Assembly: GCF_014652675.1 (NCBI RefSeq)
Contig: NZ_BMZG01000001.1
Coordinates: forward strand, 124,001 to 188,000
Reading direction: 5' to 3'
DNA from: Formosimonas limnophila
GTDB lineage: Bacteria; Pseudomonadota; Gammaproteobacteria; Burkholderiales; Burkholderiaceae
DNA: 64,000 nt
The first letter of the stretch is position 1; every line of letters starts with the position of its first letter. The notes under the pieces are model-generated. The model did not search any database and had not been told where the DNA came from. It saw nothing but the letters and a program-made list of their open reading frames with translations. Below, piece after piece: positions 146 through 43,414 of this stretch. The position numbers and the translations under genes are program-made.

Positions 146-2026
146 ATGAGTCAAATTAACGATCCGCACAAACAAGCCTTGCATGCTTTGGCTCTCGGTG
201 CGTTGGGTATTGTCTTTGGTGACATCGGTACGAGTCCTCTGTACGCCATGAAAGAGAGTCTGGGCGGGCATTACGGCCTAACCACTGATGCAGCCACCAT
301 CATGGGGGTCTTGTCATTGATGTTTTGGTCGGCGATTTTGGTGGTGTCCATCAAATACGTCACCTTCATCATGAAGGCTGATAACAAAGGTGAGGGTGGG
401 ATTCTCGCGCTGATGGCTTTGACGTTGCGTGGCAAGGAAGGTAATGCAAAGTATCGCTGGGTGTTGGTTCTGGGGATTTTAGGGGCATCCATGTTTTATG
501 GTGACTCGGTGATTACGCCCGCTATTTCGATATTGTCTGCAGTCGAGGGGCTTGAGGTTGTCGCGCCCTCGCTGCATGAATACATTTTGCCGATTGCTTT
601 GATTATCATCACGGGGTTATTTTTGATTCAAAAGCATGGCACAGGAGCAATTGGTGTGCTATTTGGGCCCGTTTGTGCGTTGTGGTTTTTGAGTTTGGGG
701 GCTTTAGGGGTTTATCATATTATTCAAAACCCTGCGATCTTGGCTGCATTGAGTCCGCACCACGCGGTGAGTTTTTTTATGGATTATCAGGTAAAAGCCT
801 TGATGGTCATGGGTTCAGTATTTCTTGTGGTCACTGGTGGCGAGGCGCTTTATGCTGACATGGGGCATTTTGGGCGTAAGCCGATTATCTTGGCGTGGTA
901 CGCTTTGGTGTTTCCCGCTTTGATGCTCAACTACTTTGGGCAGGGTGCGTTTATTTTGTCTGATGTCGCGGGGGCAAAAAATCCCTTTTTTATGATGGTG
1001 CCAAGCAGGGGTGTTTTACCGATGGTGATTTTGGCGACTTTGGCAACGATTATTGCTTCGCAGGCGGTTATTTCGGGAGCTTTTTCGCTTACCAGTGCGG
1101 CAATGAAGCTGGGGTATTGCCCACGATTAAAGATTGTTCATACCAATGAAAAAGAAAAAGGGCAGATTTATGTGCCATTTGTTAATTGGTTTTTGTGGGC
1201 ATTGGTGGTGTTTGCGGTGTTGTACTTTAAAACATCGAGCAATCTGGCTGCGGCGTATGGCATTGCAGTGACCACGACGATGTTGATTGATGATGTTTTG
1301 CTTTTGGTGGTGATGTTGACTGTGTGGCGCTGGTCAAAACCTGTGGCTTGGCTGTTGTTTGCTGCTTTTGTCGTGGTTGATGGCATGTTCTTTGGTGCGA
1401 ATGTGATTAAGTTCACCCATGGTGGTTGGTTCCCAGCGGTGTTGGGGGCGGCGATATTCATTGTGTTGATGACGTGGAAACGAGGCAAAGATTTGGTTCA
1501 CGACCGCACGGAAGGCGTGAACTTACCGCTTGTTCCCTTCATGCAAAGCCTGCTTGAGCATCCACCAACACGGGTGGAAGGCACAGCAATGTTCATGCAT
1601 GCTGATTTGAGTAATGTACCCAATTCTTTATTGCATAACCTGAAACACAACCGAGTATTGCATGAACGAATCGTGTTTTTGGGTATTCACACTGAGGATG
1701 TGCCTTATATTGCTGATGAGGCGAAAATCCACATTGATGAAATTGCAGATAATGTCTATGTGGTCAATGGTCACTATGGCTTTAAAGACGAGCCGATTAT
1801 GGCCGAAATTATGGGTTTGTGCGCCCACCAAAACCTCAATCTGGAGATGATGGACACCTCGTTTTTCTTAAACCGCGAAACCGTGATTCCAAGCAAACTC
1901 AAAGGCATGGCCATTTGGCGTGAACGGATGTTTGCGCTCATGATGCGCAATTCGGTACGTGCAACGGATTACTTCCAAATCCCACCCAATCGGGTGGTGG
2001 AAATGGGGACACAGGTGGAGATTTAA
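146..2026 (+). CDS. kup: Kup-family potassium transporter
   Basis: Inner-membrane K+ uptake protein of the Kup/HAK/KT family, which imports K+ with protons. The protein is 626 residues, the usual length. The family signature GDIGTSPLYA lies near residues 25-34, followed by about 12 hydrophobic segments up to roughly residue 455 and a soluble cytoplasmic C-terminal domain of about 170 residues. The ATG at 146 is preceded by AAGGATAAAGG, a usable ribosome binding site. It is a single-gene unit closed by the terminator at 2051-2080. Nothing in the sequence points to truncation or unusual composition. Confidence 0.95.
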   Translation: MSQINDPHKQALHALALGALGIVFGDIGTSPLYAMKESLGGHYGLTTDAATIMGVLSLMFWSAILVVSIKYVTFIMKADNKGEGGILALMALTLRGKEGNAKYRWVLVLGILGASMFYGDSVITPAISILSAVEGLEVVAPSLHEYILPIALIIITGLFLIQKHGTGAIGVLFGPVCALWFLSLGALGVYHIIQNPAILAALSPHHAVSFFMDYQVKALMVMGSVFLVVTGGEALYADMGHFGRKPIILAWYALVFPALMLNYFGQGAFILSDVAGAKNPFFMMVPSRGVLPMVILATLATIIASQAVISGAFSLTSAAMKLGYCPRLKIVHTNEKEKGQIYVPFVNWFLWALVVFAVLYFKTSSNLAAAYGIAVTTTMLIDDVLLLVVMLTVWRWSKPVAWLLFAAFVVVDGMFFGANVIKFTHGGWFPAVLGAAIFIVLMTWKRGKDLVHDRTEGVNLPLVPFMQSLLEHPPTRVEGTAMFMHADLSNVPNSLLHNLKHNRVLHERIVFLGIHTEDVPYIADEAKIHIDEIADNVYVVNGHYGFKDEPIMAEIMGLCAHQNLNLEMMDTSFFLNRETVIPSKLKGMAIWRERMFALMMRNSVRATDYFQIPPNRVVEMGTQVEI

Positions 2027-2050
2027 GAAAGCTTGTTGGTCTGACATAAA

Positions 2051-2080
2051 AACCAGTGCGAATGGGCACTGGTTTTTTTA
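2051..2080 (+). terminator. Intrinsic terminator of kup
   Basis: Perfect 9-bp stem (AACCAGTGC at 2051-2059 with GCACTGGTT at 2066-2074), 6-nt loop and a T-run to 2079. Confidence 0.9.
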
Positions 2081-2145
2081 TAGGTGATGTACGGGTATGA
2101 GTTGAGCGGTATGATTTTGTTATTGATAAAATTGAAGGAGTGGCA

Positions 2146-3204
2146 ATGAAGGCGATTGTGGTGGGTTATGGTTTGTCGGGTAAGGTGTTTCATGTGCCTT
2201 TGCTCAAAGCGGCGAGTATTGAGGTGGCTGCGGTTGTGACGCGAGATGAGGAGCGCCGTGCTCAGGTGCGTGCGGATTGTCCTCAAGCTTTGCTATGTGA
2301 TGATTTGAGTGCGGCGTTGAGTGCTGAACCTGATGCGGTGCTGGTGGTTGTGGCGAGTACCACCGCGAGTCATACGCCGTTAGCGATTGAGGCTTTGCAG
2401 GCTGGGCGGCATGTGGTGGTGGATAAGCCTGTGGCGTTGACGGCAGATGAGTTTCGACAGGTCGTTGATTTGGCTCAGGCATCTGGGCGGTGGGTGATTC
2501 CGTTTCAAAATCGGCGTTGGGATGCGGATTTTTTGACTTTGCGTGGGTTGTTGTCACAAAATGCTCTGGGCGAGGTGGTGCGTTATGAGGCGCGTTTTGA
2601 CCGCTATAATCCTGTGGTCAAAGACCGCTGGCGCGAGCACAATGTCGCTGGAGCGGGGATGCTTTATGACTTGGGGCCGCATTTGATTGACCAAGCTTTG
2701 CAGTTGTTTGGTCGACCTGATTGGGTGTTTTGCACCTTGCTGCAACAGCGAGCAGGTGCGCAGATTGATGATGGATTCGAGCTGGTTTTGGGTAAAAACG
2801 ACTCAAGTTATCCTTATGTGACTTTGGGCGCTTCGGTGTTCAGCAGCCTCGGCGATGCAGCCAGCGGGGCACCACGGTTTAAGGTATTTGGCCGACAAGG
2901 CACTTGGCTTAAGAGCGGCTTTGACCCTCAGGAAGTCCCACTTCGTGCGGGTGAGATTCCAATACAGATCGATTGGCAAACCGAATCAGAGTCGGCGCGT
3001 GGTCGTCTGCTCGACGGAGTGTTGCAGTCAGAAACACGAACTCAAGCTGGGGTGGGGCAATGGCCGTATTTTTATGTGCAAGTGGCTCGTGCTATATCTG
3101 GCAACGGCGAACCACCTGTGCTCGCCAGTGAAGCGGTGGTGACTTGCGAGGTGATTGATGCGGCGTTAGCGAGTCATCAACGTGGCATCAAGGTGCGCCT
3201 TTGA
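2146..3204 (+). CDS. Gfo/Idh/MocA-family oxidoreductase, YdgJ-like
   Basis: NAD(P)-dependent oxidoreductase with an N-terminal Rossmann fold (VVGYGLSGKVFHVPLL near the N-terminus) and the family's DKP motif (VVVDKPVAL, about residue 95-103), followed by a GFO_IDH_MocA C-terminal domain with the NRRWDADFLTL and DRWREH segments typical of Escherichia coli YdgJ. Substrate is unknown; relatives act on inositols or sugars. A GTG six bases upstream is in frame, but the GAAGGAG Shine-Dalgarno at 2134-2140 overlaps that GTG and is correctly spaced for the ATG at 2146, so I use 2146 (352 residues). It converges on the hexokinase gene, sharing the terminator between them. Confidence 0.85.
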   Translation: MKAIVVGYGLSGKVFHVPLLKAASIEVAAVVTRDEERRAQVRADCPQALLCDDLSAALSAEPDAVLVVVASTTASHTPLAIEALQAGRHVVVDKPVALTADEFRQVVDLAQASGRWVIPFQNRRWDADFLTLRGLLSQNALGEVVRYEARFDRYNPVVKDRWREHNVAGAGMLYDLGPHLIDQALQLFGRPDWVFCTLLQQRAGAQIDDGFELVLGKNDSSYPYVTLGASVFSSLGDAASGAPRFKVFGRQGTWLKSGFDPQEVPLRAGEIPIQIDWQTESESARGRLLDGVLQSETRTQAGVGQWPYFYVQVARAISGNGEPPVLASEAVVTCEVIDAALASHQRGIKVRL

Positions 3205-3220
3205 CCAATGCCAGATAACA

Positions 3221-3252
3221 AAAAAACGCCCAATAACCATTGGGTGTTTTTT
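3221..3252. terminator. Bidirectional terminator between oxidoreductase and hexokinase
   Basis: A-run, CGCCCAAT / ATTGGGTG stem with a 4-nt loop, then T-run (3221-3252). It lies between convergent genes and would work in both directions. Confidence 0.85.
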
Positions 3253-3264
3253 GGTGATGAAAAC

Positions 3265-4524
3265 TCACATGCTCAATGCTGCCGTGGCTGCACCGATGAA
3301 GTTGGCATCAACGCCAGTGTCGTTTTGCATGATGCGCACGGTTACGTTGTCGGGAATCAATCGCGTGAGTGTTTCTTCGACACGTTGAGGGTAGCCGTTG
3401 GTCAACCAAAATAACGAACCTTCGGGCAAAATGCCGACAATTTGGGCTTTGTCTGTGGGTAGATCTTGTGCCTTGATGACGCCTGCGAGCGCGGCGGCGA
3501 CGAGATCTGCGGAGCGATTAATGAGAGCAATGGCGACATGAGACATTGGGCCTTGATAGCGGCGTAACTGCGTCACGTGACCTGCATGGGTGTTTTCGTT
3601 GTCTTCTGGATCAAAATCCAAGCCGTCAGGCAATGCCATGCAGGCTTCGCGGCCCACGATCCGACCGTAGATTTTGGCCAAATAGCGGCCACTGACGGCT
3701 TTTTCTAAACGCTGGCGACCCGGCGAGTCGTTGGGGTTGTCTGCATCAAGCTCGTCGTCATAGTGTGATAGGCAAGCTGGGTGAAAGTTACCAAGCTCTA
3801 AATTCACGGCCATCAATTCATCTTGTCCCCACCGAGCGGCGATGTCGGGGGCGAGTTTGGTGATTTGAGTGGTGCGAAAAAATCCCGCTGCATTCATGCC
3901 CGTTCCTGCAATCAAACCCAAATATTGATCACAATCAGGCGACATCCATGCACCCGCAATCAGTGCTGTGACTGTGTCGTTTAAAACGGGGGTTTTCAGG
4001 GCTGTATGGCCTTGCGCTGTGATGGCTTGCGTGAGCAGGGCACGCGCAGATTGGCCTATCACGTCGTCAACGTTGATGTTTTTTGTCCAGTTGATGAGTG
4101 ATGCATCACCGTCTGGTTTGTTTTCGCTGGGGTATGAGAAGCAGTAGCCCAAGTTGAATTCAGGTGGTGGTGAGAGCTTGTTTAATAAGCTCGCTTGTCG
4201 GTTAAAAAACTCATCAGCGGAAACATTGCCGGGAATCTGTGCATCAAACATCAGGGTTTTGTCAGCCAACGGGCCATTGATGAATTCGACGGTGTCGGCT
4301 GTCATCTTGATGTGTCCCGCGCGCACGTTTGTCCCGCCTGCATCCAAAATGAACGCTTCGCCAGATAAATTCTGTTTGGGCAATTTTAAATACGCAGGTA
4401 AAGACTTGATTTGTTGGCCTGCTTGACTCAAGCCTTTGTGAATGTTTGCAGCGAGTTCGTCACGTGCTTGTGTGAGTTGCTCATTGGTCAGCGTCAGCGC
4501 GGCGATGGCGTCGTCAAAGTTCAT
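3265..4524 (-). CDS. Hexokinase of the eukaryotic (HK) family
   Basis: ATP-dependent sugar kinase that would phosphorylate glucose or another hexose. The 419-residue protein follows the two-domain plan of yeast and animal hexokinases, not bacterial Glk or ROK: phosphate-binding LDAGGTNVRAG (residues 60-70), the sugar-site block GYCFSYPSENK...LINWTKNI (126-150), NDT with the presumed catalytic Asp183, GTGMNA (207-212), NLELGNF (241-247, sugar-binding Glu243), and EKAVSGRYL (274-282). The single catalytic unit lacks a regulatory half. Translation start has AGAGGGGAC upstream. It stands alone, convergent with the oxidoreductase. The family assignment is firm from the motifs; the sugar specificity and the evolutionary source are not known. 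Confidence 0.88.
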   Translation of the reverse strand: MNFDDAIAALTLTNEQLTQARDELAANIHKGLSQAGQQIKSLPAYLKLPKQNLSGEAFILDAGGTNVRAGHIKMTADTVEFINGPLADKTLMFDAQIPGNVSADEFFNRQASLLNKLSPPPEFNLGYCFSYPSENKPDGDASLINWTKNINVDDVIGQSARALLTQAITAQGHTALKTPVLNDTVTALIAGAWMSPDCDQYLGLIAGTGMNAAGFFRTTQITKLAPDIAARWGQDELMAVNLELGNFHPACLSHYDDELDADNPNDSPGRQRLEKAVSGRYLAKIYGRIVGREACMALPDGLDFDPEDNENTHAGHVTQLRRYQGPMSHVAIALINRSADLVAAALAGVIKAQDLPTDKAQIVGILPEGSLFWLTNGYPQRVEETLTRLIPDNVTVRIMQNDTGVDANFIGAATAALSM

Positions 4525-31742: not shown

Positions 31743-33572
31743 ATGTTATTTAAATGGTTTGAGCGTCGTATTGATCCATATCCACCTGAAGAGCCGACGC
31801 CACCGCGCGCGGGTTTGCTGCCTTTTCTGTGGTCATGTGTGGATGGTTTGCGGGTGTATATCTTGGCATTGATGGTGTTGACAGCACTGATTGGTGGGTT
31901 TGAGGCGCTTTTATTTAGCATGATGGGCAAAGTGGTTGATTGGTTGGCCACGACTGCCCCTGCGCAGCTGTGGGTTGAGCGTGGCGATGCCTTGATGTGG
32001 ATGGTGGCGCTGATTGTTGGCAGCCCGATTGTGGTGGCGCTGCACTCTATGATTAAGTTACAAACATTGCAAGGCGCGTTCCCGATGCGACTGCGATGGA
32101 ACTTTCATCGTTTGATGTTGGCGCAGAGTATGGGGTTTTATCAGGATGAGTTTGCGGGACGTGTGTCGGCGAAGGTCATGCAGACTGCACTGGCGGTGCG
32201 CGATACGGTCATGTTGTTTGCAGACATTATGGTGTTTTTGGTGATTTATTTTGCGACGTCGGCGTTGATTTTAGGAGAGCTTGGTCTGTGGCTTATGGTT
32301 CCATTGCTCTGTTGGGTGGTGCTGTATGCGTGTGCGGTGAAGTTTTTTGTACCACGTTTGGCACGTACGGCTCGCGCACAGGCTGATGCACGTTCGTTGA
32401 TGATGGGGCGTATTACGGATGCTTACTCAAATATTGCCACTGTGAAGCTATTTTCGCATGCCTCCCGTGAGTCGGGTTATGCAAAAAATGCGATGCAAGA
32501 GTTCATGGTAACGGTATTCAAACAAATGCGTTTGGGTTCGAGTTTTGAAATTGTGAATCATATTTTGAGCATGATGCTGATTCTCGGCACGGCGGGGGTG
32601 GCACTTTGGCTTTGGCAAACAGGTCAAGTGGGTGTTGGCGCGGTCGCAGCGGCCACCGCTATGGCACTGCGCTTGAATGGCATGGCGCAGTGGATTATGT
32701 GGGAACTGTCGCAGTTATTCGAGCACATAGGTACGGTGCAAGACGGCATGAATACATTGTCCAGACCGCACACTGTGCTGGATGTGCCAAATGCTCCTGC
32801 GCTCAACGTGGGGCGGGGTGAGGTGGTGTTTGACGACGTGACCTTTAATTATGACAGTGACAGAAAATTGGTTGAGAATCTGTCACTGCGTATCAGGGCG
32901 GGTGAAAAAATCGGTTTGGTTGGTCGCTCAGGTGCGGGCAAAAGTACGATTGTGAATCTACTTTTGCGCTTTTATGATGTGCCATCGGGTCGGATTTTGA
33001 TTGATGGACAAAACATTGCGCAGGTGTCTCAAGACTCCCTACGCGCTCAAATCGGTATGGTGACGCAGGACACTTCGCTGCTGCATCGTTCGGTACGGGA
33101 TAATATACTGTATGGTCGCCCATCCGCCTCCGATGAAGAGATGATTGAAGCATCTCGCCGTGCGCAAGCGTTTGAATTCATAGGTGGTTTGAGTGATTTG
33201 GCTGGTAGGGAAGGCTTTGAAGCCCACGTCGGTGAGCGAGGAGTCAAACTCTCAGGTGGTCAACGCCAACGCATCGCCATCGCTCGAGTTATGCTCAAAG
33301 ACGCACCGATACTTCTGCTTGATGAGGCCACCAGTGCACTTGATTCTGAGGTAGAAGCTGCGATTCAAGAAAGTCTATATCAGCTTATGGAGGGAAAAAC
33401 CGTAATTGCGATTGCTCACCGTCTCTCCACTATCGCTGCGATGGACCGCTTGATTGTCTTAGAAAAAGGGCGAATTGTGGAGGAGGGGACTCATGTAGAG
33501 CTGTTGAAGCAAGATGGATTGTACGCACGGTTATGGGCGCATCAAAGCGGTGGATTTTTGGGCGAAGAATAA
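31743..33572 (+). CDS. ABC exporter, fused permease/ATPase
   Basis: Type IV (MsbA-like) half-transporter of 609 residues. Six hydrophobic segments occupy about residues 35-330. The nucleotide-binding domain has Walker A GRSGAGKSTI, Q-loop VTQDTSLL, signature LSGGQRQRIA, Walker B ILLLDEATSALD and H-loop AIAHRLS. The Pro/Glu-rich N-terminus (ERRIDPYPPEEPTPP) is typical of a proteobacterial subgroup of uncharacterised exporters. It would act as a homodimer in the inner membrane; substrate unknown. The gene is followed directly by an IS5-type remnant. Confidence 0.9.
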   Translation: MLFKWFERRIDPYPPEEPTPPRAGLLPFLWSCVDGLRVYILALMVLTALIGGFEALLFSMMGKVVDWLATTAPAQLWVERGDALMWMVALIVGSPIVVALHSMIKLQTLQGAFPMRLRWNFHRLMLAQSMGFYQDEFAGRVSAKVMQTALAVRDTVMLFADIMVFLVIYFATSALILGELGLWLMVPLLCWVVLYACAVKFFVPRLARTARAQADARSLMMGRITDAYSNIATVKLFSHASRESGYAKNAMQEFMVTVFKQMRLGSSFEIVNHILSMMLILGTAGVALWLWQTGQVGVGAVAAATAMALRLNGMAQWIMWELSQLFEHIGTVQDGMNTLSRPHTVLDVPNAPALNVGRGEVVFDDVTFNYDSDRKLVENLSLRIRAGEKIGLVGRSGAGKSTIVNLLLRFYDVPSGRILIDGQNIAQVSQDSLRAQIGMVTQDTSLLHRSVRDNILYGRPSASDEEMIEASRRAQAFEFIGGLSDLAGREGFEAHVGERGVKLSGGQRQRIAIARVMLKDAPILLLDEATSALDSEVEAAIQESLYQLMEGKTVIAIAHRLSTIAAMDRLIVLEKGRIVEEGTHVELLKQDGLYARLWAHQSGGFLGEE

Positions 33573-33593
33573 AGCTATTGCTTGTGTTGCAAG

Positions 33594-34151
33594 CTTTCTG
33601 TAGAAGTCGTCACGGCGATCCACTTGAGAGACTCAATGGAGTGATGGGTTGGCAAATGTTTGCGCCAATGATTTCGCGAATCACCCCTGTCGAGCCTAAA
33701 AGCAATGCAGGTCGGCCCCGCACCGAGAGCGTATTGTTATTTAAGATTCTCATACTCAAGAAACTCTACGCATTATCAGACGACGCAGTTGAGTACCAAA
33801 TTCGCGACCGCTTAAGTTTCATGCGGTTTCTCGGTTTAAAGTTATCCAGCAAAATACCTGATGCCAAAACCATCACAAGCCTTACCAGACTTACTGCGCA
33901 GCGCAGATGAAGGCGGCGCGGCTGTATACGCTGACAGTGCTTATAAACCTGACGAAATCGACGGCATCTTATTTGCAAAAGGCTTGAACAACAAGATTCA
34001 CGAGCGTGCTTACCGCCACAAACCACTGACTGACGCGCAAATTGCCGATAATACGTTTAAGTCACGCAAACGCTCGCGGGCGGAGCATGTGTTTGGTAGT
34101 ATCAAAGCTTTGGCCAGTCGCGGAGTGCTGGGGGATTTTTAAAGGTTCCCT
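33594..34151 (+). pseudogene. IS5-family transposase remnant
   Basis: Two pieces of one IS5-type DDE transposase in different frames. The first (to about 33890) has GDPLERLNGVMGWQMF, the RPR..SVLLFKILILKKLYALSD region and DAKTI; the second (from about 33900 to 34142) has AVYADSAYKPDEI, KIHERAYRHKPLT and the SRKRSRAEHVFGSIKAL block that bears the final catalytic Glu. The central DDE region with the first Asp is deleted, and the frame is broken at the junction. An AAAGGTTCCC at 34142-34151 may be the right terminal repeat; I find no matching left end. Not functional. Confidence 0.85.
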
Positions 34152-36034: not shown

Positions 36035-36069
36035 ATACCCGAGTAAATTAATCGGGTTTATGTTACAAT
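36035..36069 (+). promoter_or_regulatory. iscR promoter with IscR type 1-like operator
   Basis: A palindrome at 36035-36061 (ATACCCGAGTAAAT then TAATCGGGTTTAT) follows the layout of IscR type 1 sites (ATAxxxGACTxxxxxAGTCxxxTAT). It is followed at once by an extended -10, TGTTACAAT (36061-36069). The operator covers the -35 position, as in E. coli, where [2Fe-2S] IscR represses the operon. Confidence 0.65.
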
Positions 36070-36138: not shown

Positions 36139-36588
36139 ATGAGGCTCACCACGAAAGGACGATTTGCGGTCACAGCGCTACTCGATGTGGCTTTGCGCTC
36201 AACGGATGGCCCCGTTAATTTGGCGGCTGTGTCCGAGCGTCAGCAGATTTCGTTGTCGTATTTAGAACAATTGTTTGGCAAATTGCGTCGCCATGGCTTG
36301 GTTGATAGTGTGCGTGGACCCGGTGGTGGTTATGTGCTTGCTCGTCAACCTGACACCATCACGGTTGCTAATATTATTATTGCGGTCGATGAGCCGCTGG
36401 ATGCACGCTCGTGCGAAGGTCGTGAAGACTGCCAAGGTGGTCAAAGATGCATGACACACGATTTGTGGCAGAACTTGAACCAGAAAATGTTTGATTATTT
36501 AGAGTCTGTTAGTCTCCATGATTTGGTTAATGATTTCCAAGCCAGTCAGCCGAACGAAGCAGGCGAGCAAATGATTCGTATCCAGTAG
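36139..36588 (+). CDS. iscR: Iron-sulfur cluster regulator IscR
   Basis: Rrf2-family winged-helix repressor, 149 residues, controlling the isc operon. The [2Fe-2S] ligands Cys92, Cys98, Cys104 and His107 ([16 protein letters not shown]) are at the same positions as in E. coli IscR. The helix-turn-helix lies in residues 25-55. Ribosome binding site AAGGAA. First gene of the isc operon, with an IscR-type operator in its promoter. Confidence 0.96.
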
Positions 36589-36669: not shown

Positions 36670-37884
36670 ATGAGCCACAAAATGCCGATTTATATGGATT
36701 ATTCAGCCACCACGCCGATTGACCCGCGTGTTGCTGAAAAAATGATTCCCTTTATCACCGAACAATTTGGCAATCCCGCTTCACGCAGCCATCCTTATGG
36801 CTGGGAAGCCGAGCAAGCGGTTGAGACCGCGCGCGGTCATGTCGCAGCATTGGTTAACGCCGATCCACGTGAGATTGTCTTTACTTCAGGTGCGACTGAG
36901 TCCGACAATCTGGCGATTAAAGGCGTTGCGCAGTTTTACCAAGACAAAGGCAAACACATCATCACCGTTAAAACCGAGCACAAAGCTGTGCTTGATACCT
37001 GCCGCGAGTTGGAGCGTCAGGGTTTTGCAGTGACTTACCTTGATGTGCTCGAAAATGGTTTGCTCGATTTAAACGCACTCGCCGCTGCTATGCGTCCTGA
37101 TACGATTTTGGTCTCGGTCATGCATGTCAACAACGAAATCGGTGTGATTCAGGACATCGCTGCCATCGGCGAAATGTGCCGCGAGCGTGGGATTATCTTC
37201 CACGTTGATGCAGCTCAATCGACGGGCAAAGTGGCGATTGATTTGAGCACGCTCAAAGTTGATTTGATGAGCTTTTCCGCGCACAAAACTTACGGCCCGA
37301 AAGGCATCGGTGCACTGTACGTGCGCCGCAAACCGCGCATTCGCTTAGAAGCACAAATGCACGGTGGTGGTCATGAGCGTGGTATGCGCTCAGGTACTTT
37401 GGCAACCCATCAAATCGTCGGGATGGGTGAAGCGTTTCGCATTGCGCACGAAGACATGGCGACCGAAAATCAACGAATCCGTGCGTTGCGTGATAGATTG
37501 TGGCAAGGTTTTTCAACCATGGAAGAAGTGCACATCAATGGCGACATGACCCAGCGCGTACCGCACAACCTCAACGTTAGCTTCAACTTTGTTGAGGGCG
37601 AGTCCTTGATTATGGCGATTAAAGATGTTGCGGTATCGTCTGGTTCCGCCTGTACTTCGGCGTCGCTTGAGCCATCGTATGTGTTGCGTGCTTTGGGTCG
37701 CTCGGATGAGCTCGCTCACTCCTCGATTCGCTTCACTGTCGGTCGTTTCACTACCGAAGCTGAGGTTGATGAAGTGATTGCCTTGTTGCAAAGCAAAATC
37801 GCCAAGCTGCGCGAACTCTCACCTCTGTGGGAAATGTTCAAAGAAGGTATTGATTTGAATACCGTGCAATGGGCTGCGCACTAA
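36670..37884 (+). CDS. iscS: Cysteine desulfurase IscS
   Basis: PLP enzyme that takes sulfur from cysteine for Fe-S cluster and thionucleoside synthesis. The 404 residues match the standard IscS length. PLP lysine in [12 protein letters not shown] (Lys206) and active-site Cys328 in [21 protein letters not shown] are both in place, as is the C-terminal [21 protein letters not shown] that docks IscU. The ATG at 36670 follows TGGAG; in-frame codons further upstream are not needed. Confidence 0.97.
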
Positions 37885-37903: not shown

Positions 37904-38296
37904 ATGAGCCTCAAAACCAGCCTGATATTGGTGCTCACTGTGTTGAGTGGAGTGAGCTTGGCGGCGCAAGCCTCAACGGGCGTGAGTTGCTTGATTCATG
38001 GCAAATTGATTGAAAAAATGACTGTAACAGGTGAATTGAAACACCAATACACCGTGGTCATTGAACAATCGGCGAACGACTCGGCAAGTCGCAATGATTT
38101 TAAAGATTGCCAAACGCGTTTTAAACGAGGGCAAAAGTTGGTGTTCTCATCCGTTGAGAATATCGACTTAAAGCAAACTCCGCGTGTTTGGTTGCACTAC
38201 ACCTATGGTGATGACAGAGGTGGCGCCCGTTGGGAAGGCTATCAATTCATCAATCGCAATATTTACAAGGAGCGTCAAAATGGCTTACTCAGATAA
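37904..38296 (+). CDS. Small exported protein of unknown function within the isc operon
   Basis: A 130-residue protein with a clear signal peptide (residues 1-23, LAAQAS cleavage region) and a mature domain with two cysteines (VSCLIHG and KDCQTRF) that could form a disulfide. I do not recognise a family. It starts 19 nt after iscS with GAAGGAATT upstream, and its last 17 nt overlap the iscU start, so it is cotranscribed and coupled to iscU. A periplasmic product in the middle of a cytoplasmic assembly operon is odd. It could be an insertion that was tolerated or an unrelated stress protein. Confidence 0.75.
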   Translation: MSLKTSLILVLTVLSGVSLAAQASTGVSCLIHGKLIEKMTVTGELKHQYTVVIEQSANDSASRNDFKDCQTRFKRGQKLVFSSVENIDLKQTPRVWLHYTYGDDRGGARWEGYQFINRNIYKERQNGLLR

Positions 38297-38663
38297 ACTC
38301 ATGGACCATTACGAAAACCCACGCAATGTCGGTGCTTTTGACAAAGGTGACGACAGTGTTGGCACAGGCATGGTCGGCGCACCCGCGTGTGGTGACGTGA
38401 TGAAATTGCAAATCAAGGTCAACGACGCGGGTATCATCGAAGATGCGAAGTTCAAAACCTACGGCTGCGGCTCAGCGATTGCTTCATCATCGCTCGTCAC
38501 CGAGTGGGTCAAGGGCAAAACCGTTGATCAAGCACTCGAGATTAAAAACTCACAAATCGCCGAAGAGCTTGCCTTGCCTCCAGTCAAAATTCACTGCTCG
38601 ATTCTCGCAGAAGACGCGATTAAAGCAGCAGTGGCGGATTACAAAGCCAAGCACAACGGTTGA
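38280..38663 (+). CDS. iscU: Fe-S cluster scaffold IscU
   Basis: Scaffold on which the [2Fe-2S] cluster is built, 127 residues. Ligands Cys37, Asp39, Cys63, His105 and Cys106 are present (PACGD, YGCGSAIASSS, KIHCS) along with LPPVK (99-103), the HscA recognition motif. The ATG at 38280 lies inside the end of the preceding gene and has AAGGAGCGTCAAA upstream. A perfect 13-bp hairpin follows the stop codon. Confidence 0.97.
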   Translation: MAYSDKLMDHYENPRNVGAFDKGDDSVGTGMVGAPACGDVMKLQIKVNDAGIIEDAKFKTYGCGSAIASSSLVTEWVKGKTVDQALEIKNSQIAEELALPPVKIHCSILAEDAIKAAVADYKAKHNG

Positions 38664-38665
38664 TA

Positions 38666-38695
38666 CGAAAAAAGTAGAAACCTACTTTTTTCGTG
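38666..38695 (+). terminator. Hairpin between iscU and iscA (partial terminator)
   Basis: ACGAAAAAAGTAG (38666-38678) pairs perfectly with CTACTTTTTTCGT (38683-38695). The T-rich 3' arm and GTTTT tail make it terminator-like, placed inside the operon between iscU and iscA, so it may reduce or stabilise upstream mRNA relative to downstream genes. Confidence 0.7.
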
Positions 38696-38810
38696 TTTTA
38701 GATTTGAAATTTTGTTAGGGTTATCCTGACAAAAGTTGATGAAACCCAAGATGAAAAAGCAACAACCAGCACAACAAAAAAGCGCAATTCACTTTTTTGA
38801 GGAGTAAAAA

Positions 38811-39134
38811 ATGGCAGTCTCAATGACCGCTGCGGCGGCACAACACGTACAAAACTTCTTGACCAAACGCGGTAAAGGCGTCGGTCTGCGTCTCGGCGTG
38901 CGCACCACAGGGTGCTCGGGTATGGCTTACAAACTTGAATACGCCGACAACGTGGCCGAAGACGACAATGTGTTTGAAGCGCACGGCGTGAAGTTACTCA
39001 TTGACCCCAAAAGTTTGGCCTATCTCGATGGCACGGAGCTGGACTACACGCGCGAAGGTTTGAACGAAGGTTTTAAATTCAACAACCCCAACGTCAAAGA
39101 TGAGTGTGGTTGTGGTGAGTCGTTTCACGTTTGA
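38811..39134 (+). CDS. iscA: Iron-sulfur cluster carrier IscA
   Basis: A-type carrier, 107 residues, with the conserved cysteines Cys35 (TTGCSGMAY) and Cys99/Cys101 (ECGCGESF). Ribosome binding site TGAGGAG. The 147-nt gap to iscU contains the hairpin at 38666. Its TGA overlaps a possible TTG start for the next gene. Confidence 0.97.
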
Positions 39135-39139
39135 TACAA

Positions 39140-39580
39140 ATGAATATTTACCCACTGCCGCTGATGTTGGGGTTGATGGTTGCTCAATATATATTGGGCG
39201 GCTTCCCGTCGCTGACGCACGCGATTGCTCATCCGATTGGTTTGGTTGCTTTGGCAGTCGGTGGTTTTGGGTTGATATTGATGCTGATTTCGTTCATTGG
39301 GTTGAAACGACGAAACACCACCGTTGATCCAACGCGCTCGCCCGACGTTTTGGTGACGACTGGTTTATATCGCATATCGCGTAATCCCATGTATTTGGGC
39401 ATGTTGTTGATGTTGTTTTTGATACCGTTGATGGCGATGAGGCCACGTCCTTTGCTGTTCACCTTGGTGTTTTTCTTAATCATGAACTTCTATGTTATCC
39501 CGCGTGAAGAGCGGCGCATCGAAAAAATCTTTGGTAGCGCATTTACTCAATACAAAAAGCGAGTGCGTCGCTGGCTATGA
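39140..39580 (+). CDS. ICMT/PEMT-like membrane methyltransferase
   Basis: Membrane protein of about 146 residues with four hydrophobic segments and the C-terminal block TTGLYRISRNPMYLGMLLML...YVIPREERRIEKIFGSAFTQYKKRVRRW, which matches the isoprenylcysteine carboxyl methyltransferase / phospholipid methyltransferase superfamily (RNPMYLG and the E-E-R motif bind S-adenosylmethionine). Substrate unknown. The ATG at 39140 is five bases after the iscA stop; a TTG at 39131 overlapping iscA is an alternative. No strong ribosome binding site, so it may depend on coupling to iscA. It is not a standard member of isc operons. Confidence 0.78.
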   Translation: MNIYPLPLMLGLMVAQYILGGFPSLTHAIAHPIGLVALAVGGFGLILMLISFIGLKRRNTTVDPTRSPDVLVTTGLYRISRNPMYLGMLLMLFLIPLMAMRPRPLLFTLVFFLIMNFYVIPREERRIEKIFGSAFTQYKKRVRRWL

Positions 39581-39653: not shown

Positions 39654-40142
39654 ATGAAACAAAATTATTTTGAACTGTTCCAACTCCCCATCGGCTTCGC
39701 CATTAACGAAGCCGATTTGGCTTTGCGTCATCGTGCAATCATTGATAAAGTTCACCCCGACCGATTTGCCGCAAAAAGCCCGATGGAGCAGCGCCTCGCG
39801 TTACAATGGTCCACTTTTGCTAACGAAGCGTTTGATACCCTGCGCGACCCGATTGCTCGTGCGAAATATCTACTGCAATTGTACGCGCCTGAGTTGACGG
39901 GTGAATCCGTGCGCGTGACGTTGCCGCAAAATTTTTTAATGCAGCAAATGGAATGGCGTGAAGCTTTAGAAGATGGTAATCTCGATGCCGTGCGCGACGA
40001 AGTGTATGCTGCGCAAGTCACTGCGTTGGCTGATTTAAGTACCGCGTGCGCCGCGCAAGATTGGAACGCAGCACAAATACACATTGCGCAAAGTCAGTTT
40101 ATCGATAATTTTTTGAAGCAGTTGCCATATACAGATCAATAA
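39654..40142 (+). CDS. hscB: Co-chaperone HscB
   Basis: J-domain protein of 162 residues that delivers IscU to HscA. The HPD motif is present (VHPDRF, His34-Asp36), and the C-terminal three-helix IscU-binding domain follows (from about residue 85). It starts 73 nt after the methyltransferase gene and is followed 11 nt later by an AbiH-family gene instead of hscA. Confidence 0.95.
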   Translation: MKQNYFELFQLPIGFAINEADLALRHRAIIDKVHPDRFAAKSPMEQRLALQWSTFANEAFDTLRDPIARAKYLLQLYAPELTGESVRVTLPQNFLMQQMEWREALEDGNLDAVRDEVYAAQVTALADLSTACAAQDWNAAQIHIAQSQFIDNFLKQLPYTDQ

Positions 40143-40153
40143 AGAGAAAAACG

Positions 40154-41143
40154 ATGGAAACGATGGAAAGAATTTTAATCATTGGAAATGGCTTTGACTT
40201 AGATTTAGGTTTAAAGACTTCGTATCAAGACTTCCTAAAATCAGCAGTTTTTACAACATTGATAAAAGAACAAAATGGCTTGGCTCGTTATTTATATATA
40301 AAAAATACAATTCAAAACTGGGTGGACGTTGAGCATGAGTTAAAAAATTATGCCAATGATTTATACAATAAACCTGAAGCGCTTCTTAGCTTTTTAAATT
40401 TCGATCCTTCTGCTTCTAACAGGATACCCTCATTTAAAACCAATCTAAAAAAGGAGTTTGTTGCGTTAAAAGAAGCATTATGCACGCATTTAAATGACGA
40501 GCAAATGAAAGAAAAGATAATCGATTCAAATGCTTCTAGAATATTAAAATATGGGACTTTATTTAATGACCAAGGCAAATACCACGACTTTAATTGGTCA
40601 ATAGAAAAAAAAGGATTTGACTCAATTTATTCGTTTAATTATACCAATAGCCTTGAAAATTACACAGGTCGAACGGATGGAGGGCACGCTGTAGAACCAT
40701 TTTTTATTCACGGTTCTTTGAATCAAAATAACATAGTTTTTGGCGTTGAGGATGATTCAGTACCAGAGGAGTGTAATTTTTTACTTAAATCAGACCATGC
40801 AGCATTTGGGGGTGCTCCAGATTTATTGCTCAGTATTTCAGAAGAATCTAAGGAGTTCCATTTTTTCGGCTGCTCACAGGGAGATACCGACAACGCGCAT
40901 TTTGAAAACTTTTTTTCTGCGTTAGCCAAAACACCAAATGCCATGAACAAATCAACAATCAAACACCATTTACTCTTTTATGTCTATGGACAATCAGGCT
41001 ATCAAACCATAAGAAATCGAATTTTGCATTTAACCATTGGTCAGCTTGCTCGCTTTAAACTTAATCAAAAAGTGACTTTTTATGACATAAAAAAGAACGT
41101 AATGATAGACCAAAACTACTTGAACCAACTTTCAACAGATTGA
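40154..41143 (+). CDS. AbiH-family protein inserted in the isc operon
   Basis: Protein of 329 residues with the hallmarks of the AbiH family, first described as a lactococcal phage abortive-infection protein: ILIIGNGFDLDLGLKTSYQDF (GNGFD at 11-15), SFNYTNSLENY (160-170), FIHGSLN (184-190) and FFGCSQGDTDNAHF (237-250). The nucleotide-binding-like N-terminus suggests a nucleotide or nucleic acid target, but the biochemistry is unknown. Codons are strikingly A/T-ending compared with hscB and hscA, a sign of transfer. Its gaps are 11 nt to hscB and 12 nt to hscA, and AAAGAGAAAAACG precedes the ATG, so it is cotranscribed with the chaperones. Defence activity here is inferred from family only. Confidence 0.85.
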   Translation: METMERILIIGNGFDLDLGLKTSYQDFLKSAVFTTLIKEQNGLARYLYIKNTIQNWVDVEHELKNYANDLYNKPEALLSFLNFDPSASNRIPSFKTNLKKEFVALKEALCTHLNDEQMKEKIIDSNASRILKYGTLFNDQGKYHDFNWSIEKKGFDSIYSFNYTNSLENYTGRTDGGHAVEPFFIHGSLNQNNIVFGVEDDSVPEECNFLLKSDHAAFGGAPDLLLSISEESKEFHFFGCSQGDTDNAHFENFFSALAKTPNAMNKSTIKHHLLFYVYGQSGYQTIRNRILHLTIGQLARFKLNQKVTFYDIKKNVMIDQNYLNQLSTD

Positions 41144-41155
41144 TGCAAAGCAAAC

Positions 41156-43048
41156 ATGGCACTTCTCCAAATCTCCGAGCCCGGTGAATCCACCGCCCCC
41201 CATCAACACCGCTTGTCCGTCGGCATTGATTTAGGCACGACGAATTCGCTGGTTGCTACCGTGCGTCACGGTTTTCCGTCTGTGCTGGCCGATGAGTCGG
41301 GGGCGACGTTGTTGCCGTCTGTGGTGCATTATGCCGACGCGCAGATTGATGTCGGTTTGAGCGCGAAACAAGCGTCAAGCACAGACCCGAAAAACACCAT
41401 TGCTTCTGTCAAGCGACTGATGGGGCGCGGTTATCAAGATGCATTGCAGTTGCCCGATGCGGGTTATACCTTGGTTGATACGCCAGGTATGGTCAGTGTA
41501 CAGACCGTGCAGGGCGTTAAAAGCCCCGTTGAGGTGTCGGCTGAAATACTCAAAGCCTTGTATCAGCGCGCATTACAAAGTTTGAACGACGATATTGTGG
41601 GCGCGGTGATTACCGTGCCTGCGTATTTTGACGACGCGCAGCGGCAAGCGACCAAGGCGGCGGCGGAGTTGGCGGGGTTGAATGTGCTGCGCTTGCTCAA
41701 TGAGCCGACGGCGGCGGCGATTGCTTATGGCTTAGATCTTGCTGATGGGGCGGATGCGAAAGAGGGCACATTTGCGGTTTATGATTTGGGTGGCGGGACG
41801 TTTGATGTGTCGATTCTGAGGTTAACGAAGGGCGTGTTTGAAGTGCTCGCGACGCATGGTGATACCGCGCTCGGTGGCGATGATTTTGATCATCGGGTGT
41901 ACTGCTGGATTTTAAAAGAAGCTGATTTAATCGGATTGCACGCCAACTTGTCGGCGCAAGACATTCGCTTGTTACAAGCCAAAAGCCGCGCGGCGAAGGA
42001 ACATCTGACTGCTAACGGCGTGGCGAGCATTCGCGCGAGTTTGTCTGACGGTCATCAGGTCAATTTGATGCTGTCGCAAGCGCAGTTCTTTGAAATGACA
42101 AAGACACTGGTTGATAAAACGGTGCGCGTGCTCGATGAAGCCTTGAACCAAGCGAATGTCAAAAGTCATGAGCTGCAAGGCGTGGTGATGGTTGGCGGTG
42201 CGACGCGTATGCTCAATATTCAACGCGCTGTGACCTCACATGTGGCGTGTCCTGTGCTCAATGATTTAAACCCAGACGAAGTGGTCGCGCTTGGCGCGGC
42301 GATGCAGGCGAATGTCCTTGCGGGCAATCGCGCCGATGACGATTGGCTTTTGCTCGACGTGATTCCACTCTCGCTCGGCGTGGAAACGATGGGTGGCTTG
42401 ACGGAAAAAATCATCCCACGCAACAGCACGCTGCCGATTGCGCGTGCGCAAGAGTTCACCACATTCAAAGATGGTCAAACGGCGATAGCATTGCATGTCG
42501 TTCAAGGTGAGCGTGAGTTGGTGTCTGAGTGTCGCTCGCTGGCGAAATTTGAGCTGCGTGGTATTCCGCCGATGGTCGCTGGTGCGGCACGCGTGCGCGT
42601 GACTTATCAGGTTGACGCCGATGGTTTACTGACAGTGTCTGCTCGCGAAATGAATTCAGGTGTGTCTACTGAAATCACGGTCAAACCATCGTTCGGCTTG
42701 TCTGATGACGAAATTGCTGACATGCTCAAAGCAGGTAACGCCAACGCTGTCGCTGACATGCAGGCACGCGCGTGGCGTGAAGCGGTTGTTGATGCCGAAC
42801 GCATCGTTCTCGCGGTCAATGGTGCGATTGCGGAGGATGGTGAGCTGCTGTCTGATGCTGAGCGTATGGGCTTATTGAATCATATTGAGGTTGTGCAAGA
42901 ACTCATGAGCAGCCACGATGTGGCGCAAGTCGACGCCGTGCGCGCTGCTTCTGACGCTTTAGCAAAATCCTCCGAAGACTTTGCTGCGCGTCGCATGGAT
43001 AAAGCCATTGCGACTGCTCTGTCAGGTCAATCCATCGATAACTTATAA
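41156..43048 (+). CDS. hscA: Fe-S assembly chaperone HscA
   Basis: Specialised Hsp70 of 630 residues that releases clusters from IscU. ATPase domain has [55 protein letters not shown] and the [13 protein letters not shown] region; the substrate-binding domain begins with [21 protein letters not shown]. The length and absence of the DnaK C-terminal tail fit HscA. No strong ribosome binding site is visible before the ATG; the upstream AbiH-type gene may supply translational readthrough. Confidence 0.95.
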
Positions 43049-43075: not shown

Positions 43076-43414
43076 ATGCCCATTATCAAAGTCCTACCAC
43101 ACGAACACCTTTGCCCCAATGGTGCCGAGTTTGAAGCCAAATCAGGTGTCTCTGTCTGTGATAATTTATTAGAACACGACGTGGACATCGAGCATGCCTG
43201 CGAAAAAGTCGCTGCTTGCACGACTTGCCACGTGATTGTTCGCCAAGGCTACAGGTCGCTCAATGACATTGAGGATCAGGAAGAGGATTTGCTCGACATG
43301 GCATGGGGTTTGACCTCGCTGTCGCGTCTGTCCTGCCAAGCGATTGTTGCGGATGAGGACTTAACGATTGAACTGCCGAAATACACGAAAAATCATGCCA
43401 GTGAAGGGCACTGA
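43076..43414 (+). CDS. fdx: [2Fe-2S] ferredoxin, isc system
   Basis: Adrenodoxin-type ferredoxin of 112 residues providing electrons for cluster assembly. The four cluster ligands are Cys42, Cys48, Cys51 (ACEKVAACTTC) and Cys87 (RLSCQAI). Starts 27 nt after hscA. No iscX follows; the next gene is convergent. Confidence 0.97.
   Translation: MPIIKVLPHEHLCPNGAEFEAKSGVSVCDNLLEHDVDIEHACEKVAACTTCHVIVRQGYRSLNDIEDQEEDLLDMAWGLTSLSRLSCQAIVADEDLTIELPKYTKNHASEGH

Follow-up and report, generated by a model that had tools for sequence, protein, structure and literature searches.

A probable cassette slot between hscB and hscA in a Burkholderiaceae isc cluster, occupied by an AbiH gene with a possible SIR2-like fold

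In the 64,000-nucleotide stretch of DNA that we analysed (the window), taken from a Burkholderiaceae draft genome of 2.22 Mb in 55 contigs (G000) whose genus also holds Hydromonas duriensis, a gene of the AbiH family lies between hscB and hscA in the isc cluster. We consider this junction to be probably a cassette slot of the minimal-mobile-element (MME) kind that now holds a possibly SIR2-like AbiH protein. Foreign A+T-rich genes, AbiH among them, would be swapped as whole genes at the junction, most likely via homologous recombination within the conserved genes on either side, which is the simplest mechanism. Because the cargo is co-directional and close before hscA, it could use isc expression without cutting off hscA, and IscR control would act on whichever cargo occupies the slot. 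A central-pathway operon may in this way receive foreign genes again and again at one site, a member of a recognised defence family among them, and the genes in the same slot of other species are candidates for new defence or conflict functions.

The genes of the cluster occur in the order iscR, iscS, a 130-aa ORF, iscU, iscA, a phospholipid-methyltransferase-like gene, hscB, AbiH, hscA, and fdx (Table 1). A sequence-only reading of the window had placed an AbiH-like gene between hscB and hscA, separated from them by 11 nt and 12 nt; TIGR profiles established the identity of both neighbours, with the window HscB scoring below the cut-offs of three stricter HscB models. Both gaps were confirmed from the end of hscB (40142) and the start of hscA (41156), though a second ATG at 40163, the position at which the H. 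duriensis AbiH starts, is also a possible start and would make the gap to hscB 20 nt. Relative to H. duriensis, the window carries one extra 9-nt repeat unit at the AbiH start. The fdx gene directly follows hscA, at 75–85% identity, in four relatives within the genus and in three genomes of the sister genus g22. An assembly artefact was ruled out because the separate assembly of H. duriensis DSM 102852 has the same hscB-AbiH-hscA order.

Table 1. Features of the isc cluster in the window and contents of hscB-hscA junctions in other genomes; positions are those of the sequence named in the first column.
Sequence	Feature	Position	Strand	Basis or description
Window	Type-1 IscR-binding-like site, upstream of iscR	36035..36059	+	22/25 consensus match
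Window	iscR	36139..36588	+	TIGR02010, 210.9 bits (cut-off 207.55)
Window	iscS	36670..37884	+	TIGR02006, 755.6 bits (cut-off 643.2)
Window	iscU	38280..38663	+	Named by position and conservation; start set by relatives; 95–98% identical in 4 genus relatives
Window	Hairpin with U-rich tail, iscU-iscA gap, possible attenuator	38662..38697	+	Fold energy against shuffles
Window	iscA	38811..39134	+	Named by position and conservation; 86–94% identical in 4 genus relatives
Window	hscB, left border of slot	39654..40142	+	TIGR00714, 72.4 bits (cut-off 46.75)
Window (G000)	AbiH gene, cargo of slot	40154..41143	+	329 aa; PF14253, 93.4 bits; same-place relative in H. duriensis; alternative start 40163
Window	hscA, right border of slot	41156..43048	+	TIGR01991, 824.2 bits (cut-off 708.55)
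Window	fdx (ferredoxin), end of isc cluster	43076..43414	+	Named by position and conservation
G002 (H. duriensis)	Junction cargo: AbiH			352 aa, open frame, 78% identical to window AbiH
G001	Junction cargo: GIY-YIG gene and 246-aa ORF			GC 0.32
G003	Junction cargo: GIY-YIG gene, six palindromic repeats, 209-aa ORF			GC 0.37
G005	Junction cargo: GIY-YIG gene and 193-aa ORF			GC 0.40 (0.37 from inner start)
G045 (g22)	Junction cargo: GIY-YIG gene and 269-aa ORF			GC 0.32
L185 (another Burkholderiales family)	434-aa ORF	2322-3623	-
L185	HicB-like ORF	1871-2086	-	PF15919, 49.7 bits (cut-off 27)

Based on a Pfam profile search, the window protein belongs to the AbiH family, as the sequence-only reading had proposed: PF14253 matched far above its curated cut-off of 30.9 bits and across the domain (profile positions 1–251 of 260), and the GNGFD, SFNYT, IHGS, and GDTD motifs are all present. 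The PADLOC AbiH model also matched (E 1e-6, 26.5 bits), and a search of NCBIfam returned nothing up to E 0.1. The window protein thus shares its profile match and motifs with AbiH as described from Lactococcus, but its gene resides on a 2.2-Mb draft genome inside a betaproteobacterial isc cluster; it is the single AbiH profile match in G000. The gene is compositionally foreign. With a GC of 0.34 and a GC3 of 0.31, against a window ORF mean GC3 of 0.52 (sd 0.05), it has the lowest GC3 (z −4.0) of 54 window ORFs of ≥90 aa, chosen mechanically and longest-first, which bears out the deviant codon composition reported earlier.

We compared the junction among species of the genus, with one genome per species. 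Six genomes were searched and HscB was found in five, the sixth (G004, 85% complete) giving none. All five junctions are filled, each with a co-directional A+T-rich gene before hscA, and the cargo is of four kinds: AbiH in two species and other genes in three. AbiH is therefore present at the same place in a relative, H. duriensis (contig record NZ_SNZE01000006.1). When cargo genes were compared pairwise with tblastn (E 1e-4), none matched except AbiH with AbiH. The non-AbiH cargo proteins had no Pfam family over the cut-off, and three of the four kinds had no defence annotation over the cut-off. The GIY-YIG protein of G001 matched PADLOC PDC-S14 at E 1.3e-4, and the G005 cargo gave sub-threshold matches to PDDEXK_5 (E 0.0029) and PADLOC PDC-M02A (E 0.0024). 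Of the slot ORFs inspected, none was recognisable as an integrase or a transposase.

Outside the genus, filled junctions were rare. In g22 (all three genomes covered; 97%, 88%, and 70% complete), one junction is filled (G045), with cargo that has no Pfam family over the cut-off and no PADLOC match, and the other two (G026 and G059) are empty, with a 50-nt gap. Across the family, HscB was matched in 155 of 160 genomes, and 40 junctions outside the genus were fetched; leaving aside the three of g22, all 37 have gaps of 4–327 nt, and the 327-nt gap (L050) contains just short overlapping ORFs in several frames. Across the order, HscB was matched in 81 of 120 genomes, four of which were the window's own or already seen; among the other 77, 68 were examined and 9 were not fetched. 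The junction was visible in 67 of the 68, the exception (L159) having no hscA within 1482 nt, and 65 of these 67 gaps are ≤366 nt, with a 79-aa ORF in the 366-nt gap (L174). One of the two larger gaps (L136) holds a LysE-type gene of ordinary GC; the other (L185) holds a 434-aa A+T-rich ORF (GC 0.44 vs. 0.57 for the stretch), which neither Pfam nor PADLOC matched, and after it an ORF for a HicB-like antitoxin. Most genomes sampled thus have a closed junction; a filled one is mainly a habit of this genus, seen once in its sister g22.

An excerpt of PMC3082526 defines the Neisseria MME as a conserved gene pair with different whole-gene cassettes between its members in different genomes. The hscB-hscA pair fits this definition at the species level, with four kinds of cassette in five filled junctions of the genus and one filled junction of three in g22. 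It differs from the Neisseria case in that it lies in the isc cluster of Burkholderiaceae, in that the cassettes vary here from species to species and not among strains, and in that four of the slots also carry a GIY-YIG gene. In a search at the level of titles, we recognised no report of genes inserted between hscB and hscA; the MME kind itself is known, and hscB-hscA is a place for it for which we found no earlier report.

Sequence divergence between G000 and G002 is consistent with exchange at the junction. At four-fold degenerate sites, identity between the two is 0.76 for AbiH (57/75), whereas it is 0.44 for HscA (115/263), 0.41 for IscS, 0.40 for HscB, 0.37 for IscR, 0.51 for IscU, 0.57 for IscA, and 0.37 for Fdx. 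In shuffles that kept codon-family composition, the expectation for AbiH was 26.2 ± 3.8 of 75, and 57 was reached in 0 of 10000; the same shuffling gave 92.9 ± 6.9 for HscA, for which 115 of 263 was observed. G000 and G002 are sisters in none of three trees (two built by different methods from a concatenation of seven isc proteins, the third from HscA plus HscB); these trees disagree on the placing of G002 (with an ultrafast bootstrap of 65 and SH-like supports of 0.92 and 0.99), and some of the ORF starts used are too early (e.g., that of IscA in G002), which may blur them. Because the four-fold identity of AbiH exceeds that of HscA and no tree joins the two species, AbiH reached at least one of them late.

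DNA identity was followed along the G000/G002 alignment. In 60-column steps, AbiH and its spacers range from 0.64 to 0.96, hscB from 0.47 to 0.82, and hscA past its start from 0.47 to 0.88; identity climbs at the hscB tail and drops again within hscA. AbiH itself is uneven, its low-identity steps overlapping the hscA range, and the 5' end of hscA is similar in all eight genomes compared. Together with the excess similarity of AbiH, these steps fit homologous recombination in the flanks, with putative breakpoints placed from the steps only. In the closest pair, G001 and G005, the flanks are colinear (hscB 0.83–0.93 and hscA 0.77–0.97 per 60-column step), the spacer just after hscB aligns poorly, and the cargo is unrelated. 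ComEC is present, as it is also in 10 of 14 control genomes, and therefore gives no indication of competence.

Genes might instead be brought in by a self-moving element, driven by GIY-YIG homing or by repeats, rather than by recombination in host flanks. A GIY-YIG gene follows hscB in G001, G003, G005 (where its frame is broken near its start), and G045, and the slots of these same four genomes contain ATTCCCN8GGGAAT palindromes (L009 2357-3091, L007 979-1091, L008 1987-2446, and L044 1222-1241), a form that we take to resemble the dRS3 repeats of Neisseria. Both AbiH-bearing species, however, lack the GIY-YIG gene and the palindromes at the slot, the palindromes being absent from the entire window, and we consider this explanation unlikely.

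AbiH is rare in the genomes sampled. Using the window protein as query, we found matches in 4 of 398 family genomes: G000, G002, G162 with a distant match (E 3.8e-13), and G003 with a match of 26 residues that lies elsewhere and not at the slot; nothing was found in G001 or G005. Among 369 class genomes, a two-sequence profile (A1) matched only that of the window. Both of these searches begin with a loose first look and may miss relatives. AbiH profile matches occurred in 5 of 398 genomes of a phylum sample. A phage or plasmid donor was sought and not found: phages gave no AbiH match, plasmids gave one distant match (Bacteroides ovatus, 30.5% identity), and viral contigs gave five loci at 27–30% identity, with four further scans returning only the same contigs.

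The promoter region suggests how the cargo may be expressed. Scored against the type-1 IscR consensus as printed in the part of PMC3899308 that gives it, the site upstream of iscR is the sole match with ≤3 mismatches in 64 kb, and as good a match arose in 0 of 100 shuffles. All five species of the genus have an IscR-like site ahead of iscR, which matches the consensus at 20–22 of 25 positions. The isc operon is thus probably repressed by IscR, and IscR control is plausible whatever the cargo, because the site recurs in all five species. Cotranscription of AbiH with the isc genes is likewise plausible. The sequence-only reading had taken the operon to be continuous; the shared strand and short gaps agree with this, but a 16-bp hairpin with a U-rich tail between iscU and iscA (−18.8 kcal/mol, z −3.6; equalled in 1 of 200 shuffles) makes continuity uncertain. 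In G001, the iscU-iscA gap is only ~20 nt and therefore has no room for such a hairpin. On the + strand from the hscB tail to the hscA start, scanning with a consensus gave a single weak terminator-like site, which lies within AbiH; matches of this kind arise by chance at ~9 per shuffle of the region.

The earlier reading had gone further and tied AbiH to iron-sulfur status and oxidative stress through IscR. In such a dedicated link, AbiH would have been recruited into the isc operon, and IscR together with iron-sulfur or oxidative stress would govern abortive infection. The recurrent IscR-like site, the common orientation with gaps of 11 and 12 nt, and the open AbiH frame that two species retain at this position all agree with this. 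However, three of the five species hold other genes behind the same kind of promoter, with AbiH not found in G001 and G005 and represented in G003 by just the short match elsewhere; AbiH spread late and did not descend with the operon; and the hairpin lies in the gap between iscU and iscA. Because those three species carry other genes, we favour a permissive exchange slot over an AbiH-isc circuit and regard a dedicated link as distinctly unlikely; what survives of the earlier claim is a plausible IscR control of any cargo, not of AbiH specifically. Any coupling to Fe-S status would belong to the slot and not to AbiH, because the cargo changes while the promoter stays. A broader version, in which exchangeable conflict genes of the genus share the isc operon as an expression dock under IscR control, with any defence-type cassette that lands before hscA switched on when Fe-S clusters fail, as may happen in infection or oxidative stress, seems to us rather unlikely; stress-coupled defence is possible but not favoured. 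The IscR-type promoter offers a direct test of whether the cargo is tied to iron-sulfur stress.

An old vertical insertion, with AbiH already in the operon of the genus ancestor and later lost or replaced in some lineages, would account for the shared position of AbiH in G000 and G002 and for their almost identical spacers but is highly improbable, as the equal synonymous divergence of AbiH and its neighbours that it entails is not seen in this pair (0.76 vs. 0.37–0.57 for the seven isc genes) and the two species are non-sisters in every tree, with middling support for the placing of G002.

As the current occupant of the exchange slot, AbiH would most likely act alone as an abortive-infection effector of SIR2-like fold, which, after a phage trigger, may halt the infected cell by destroying NAD+ or in some other way. 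A passage of PMC3506569 names AbiH as a predicted enzyme of the Sir2 superfamily, and an entry in PMC12322248 gives it no known mechanism, credits it with an Abi phenotype, and reports inhibition of Vansinderenvirus. According to an excerpt of PMC12774641, SIR2 domains of defence systems cleave NAD+. Across seven aligned AbiH proteins, G11-N12-G13, N162, H186-G187, G239, and D246 are invariant, and the order of these motifs is shared by SIR2_2 proteins of relatives, with their G-x-G, N, H-G, and G..D; in a second SIR2_2 set, the histidine is missing in one of four. Local hhalign comparisons of AbiH and SIR2 profiles were non-significant (probabilities of 0.5% and 5%), and a forced global profile alignment lined up the four motifs at a probability of 41%, all with profiles of 4–7 sequences.

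AlphaFold2, given six sequences, produced an AbiH model with a pLDDT of 66 and a pTM of 0.62. The solved structure with the best Z against this model was SIR2/HerA (Z 6.4, rmsd 7.7 over 215 residues); KomBC took ranks 10 and 13, with unrelated folds interspersed, one of them at rank 2. The first Foldseek hit was KomC (E 0.02, probability 0.41), and a sequence search of solved structures with AbiH gave nothing useful. We take the match to a SIR2-like fold as suggestive because such scores also occur between unrelated folds. AbiH thus resembles the SIR2 NADase effectors (SIR2/HerA and KomC of Kongming) in motif order and, weakly, in fold, but differs in that no profile match is significant and no partner gene lies between hscB and hscA here. 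With moderate confidence, we infer that AbiH is a putative NAD+-directed abortive-infection effector.

Other genes in and near the cluster also vary. The 130-aa ORF between iscS and iscU (37904-38296) had no Pfam match and was matched only in G000 and G001 among the five species. The methyltransferase-like gene between iscA and hscB (39131-39580) was matched in G000 and G002, with no match in G001, G003, or G005, and each of the three g22 stretches also gave a partial match at its edge. At 33533-34142, two adjoining ORFs in different frames resemble a transposase remnant, judged by eye from their translations.
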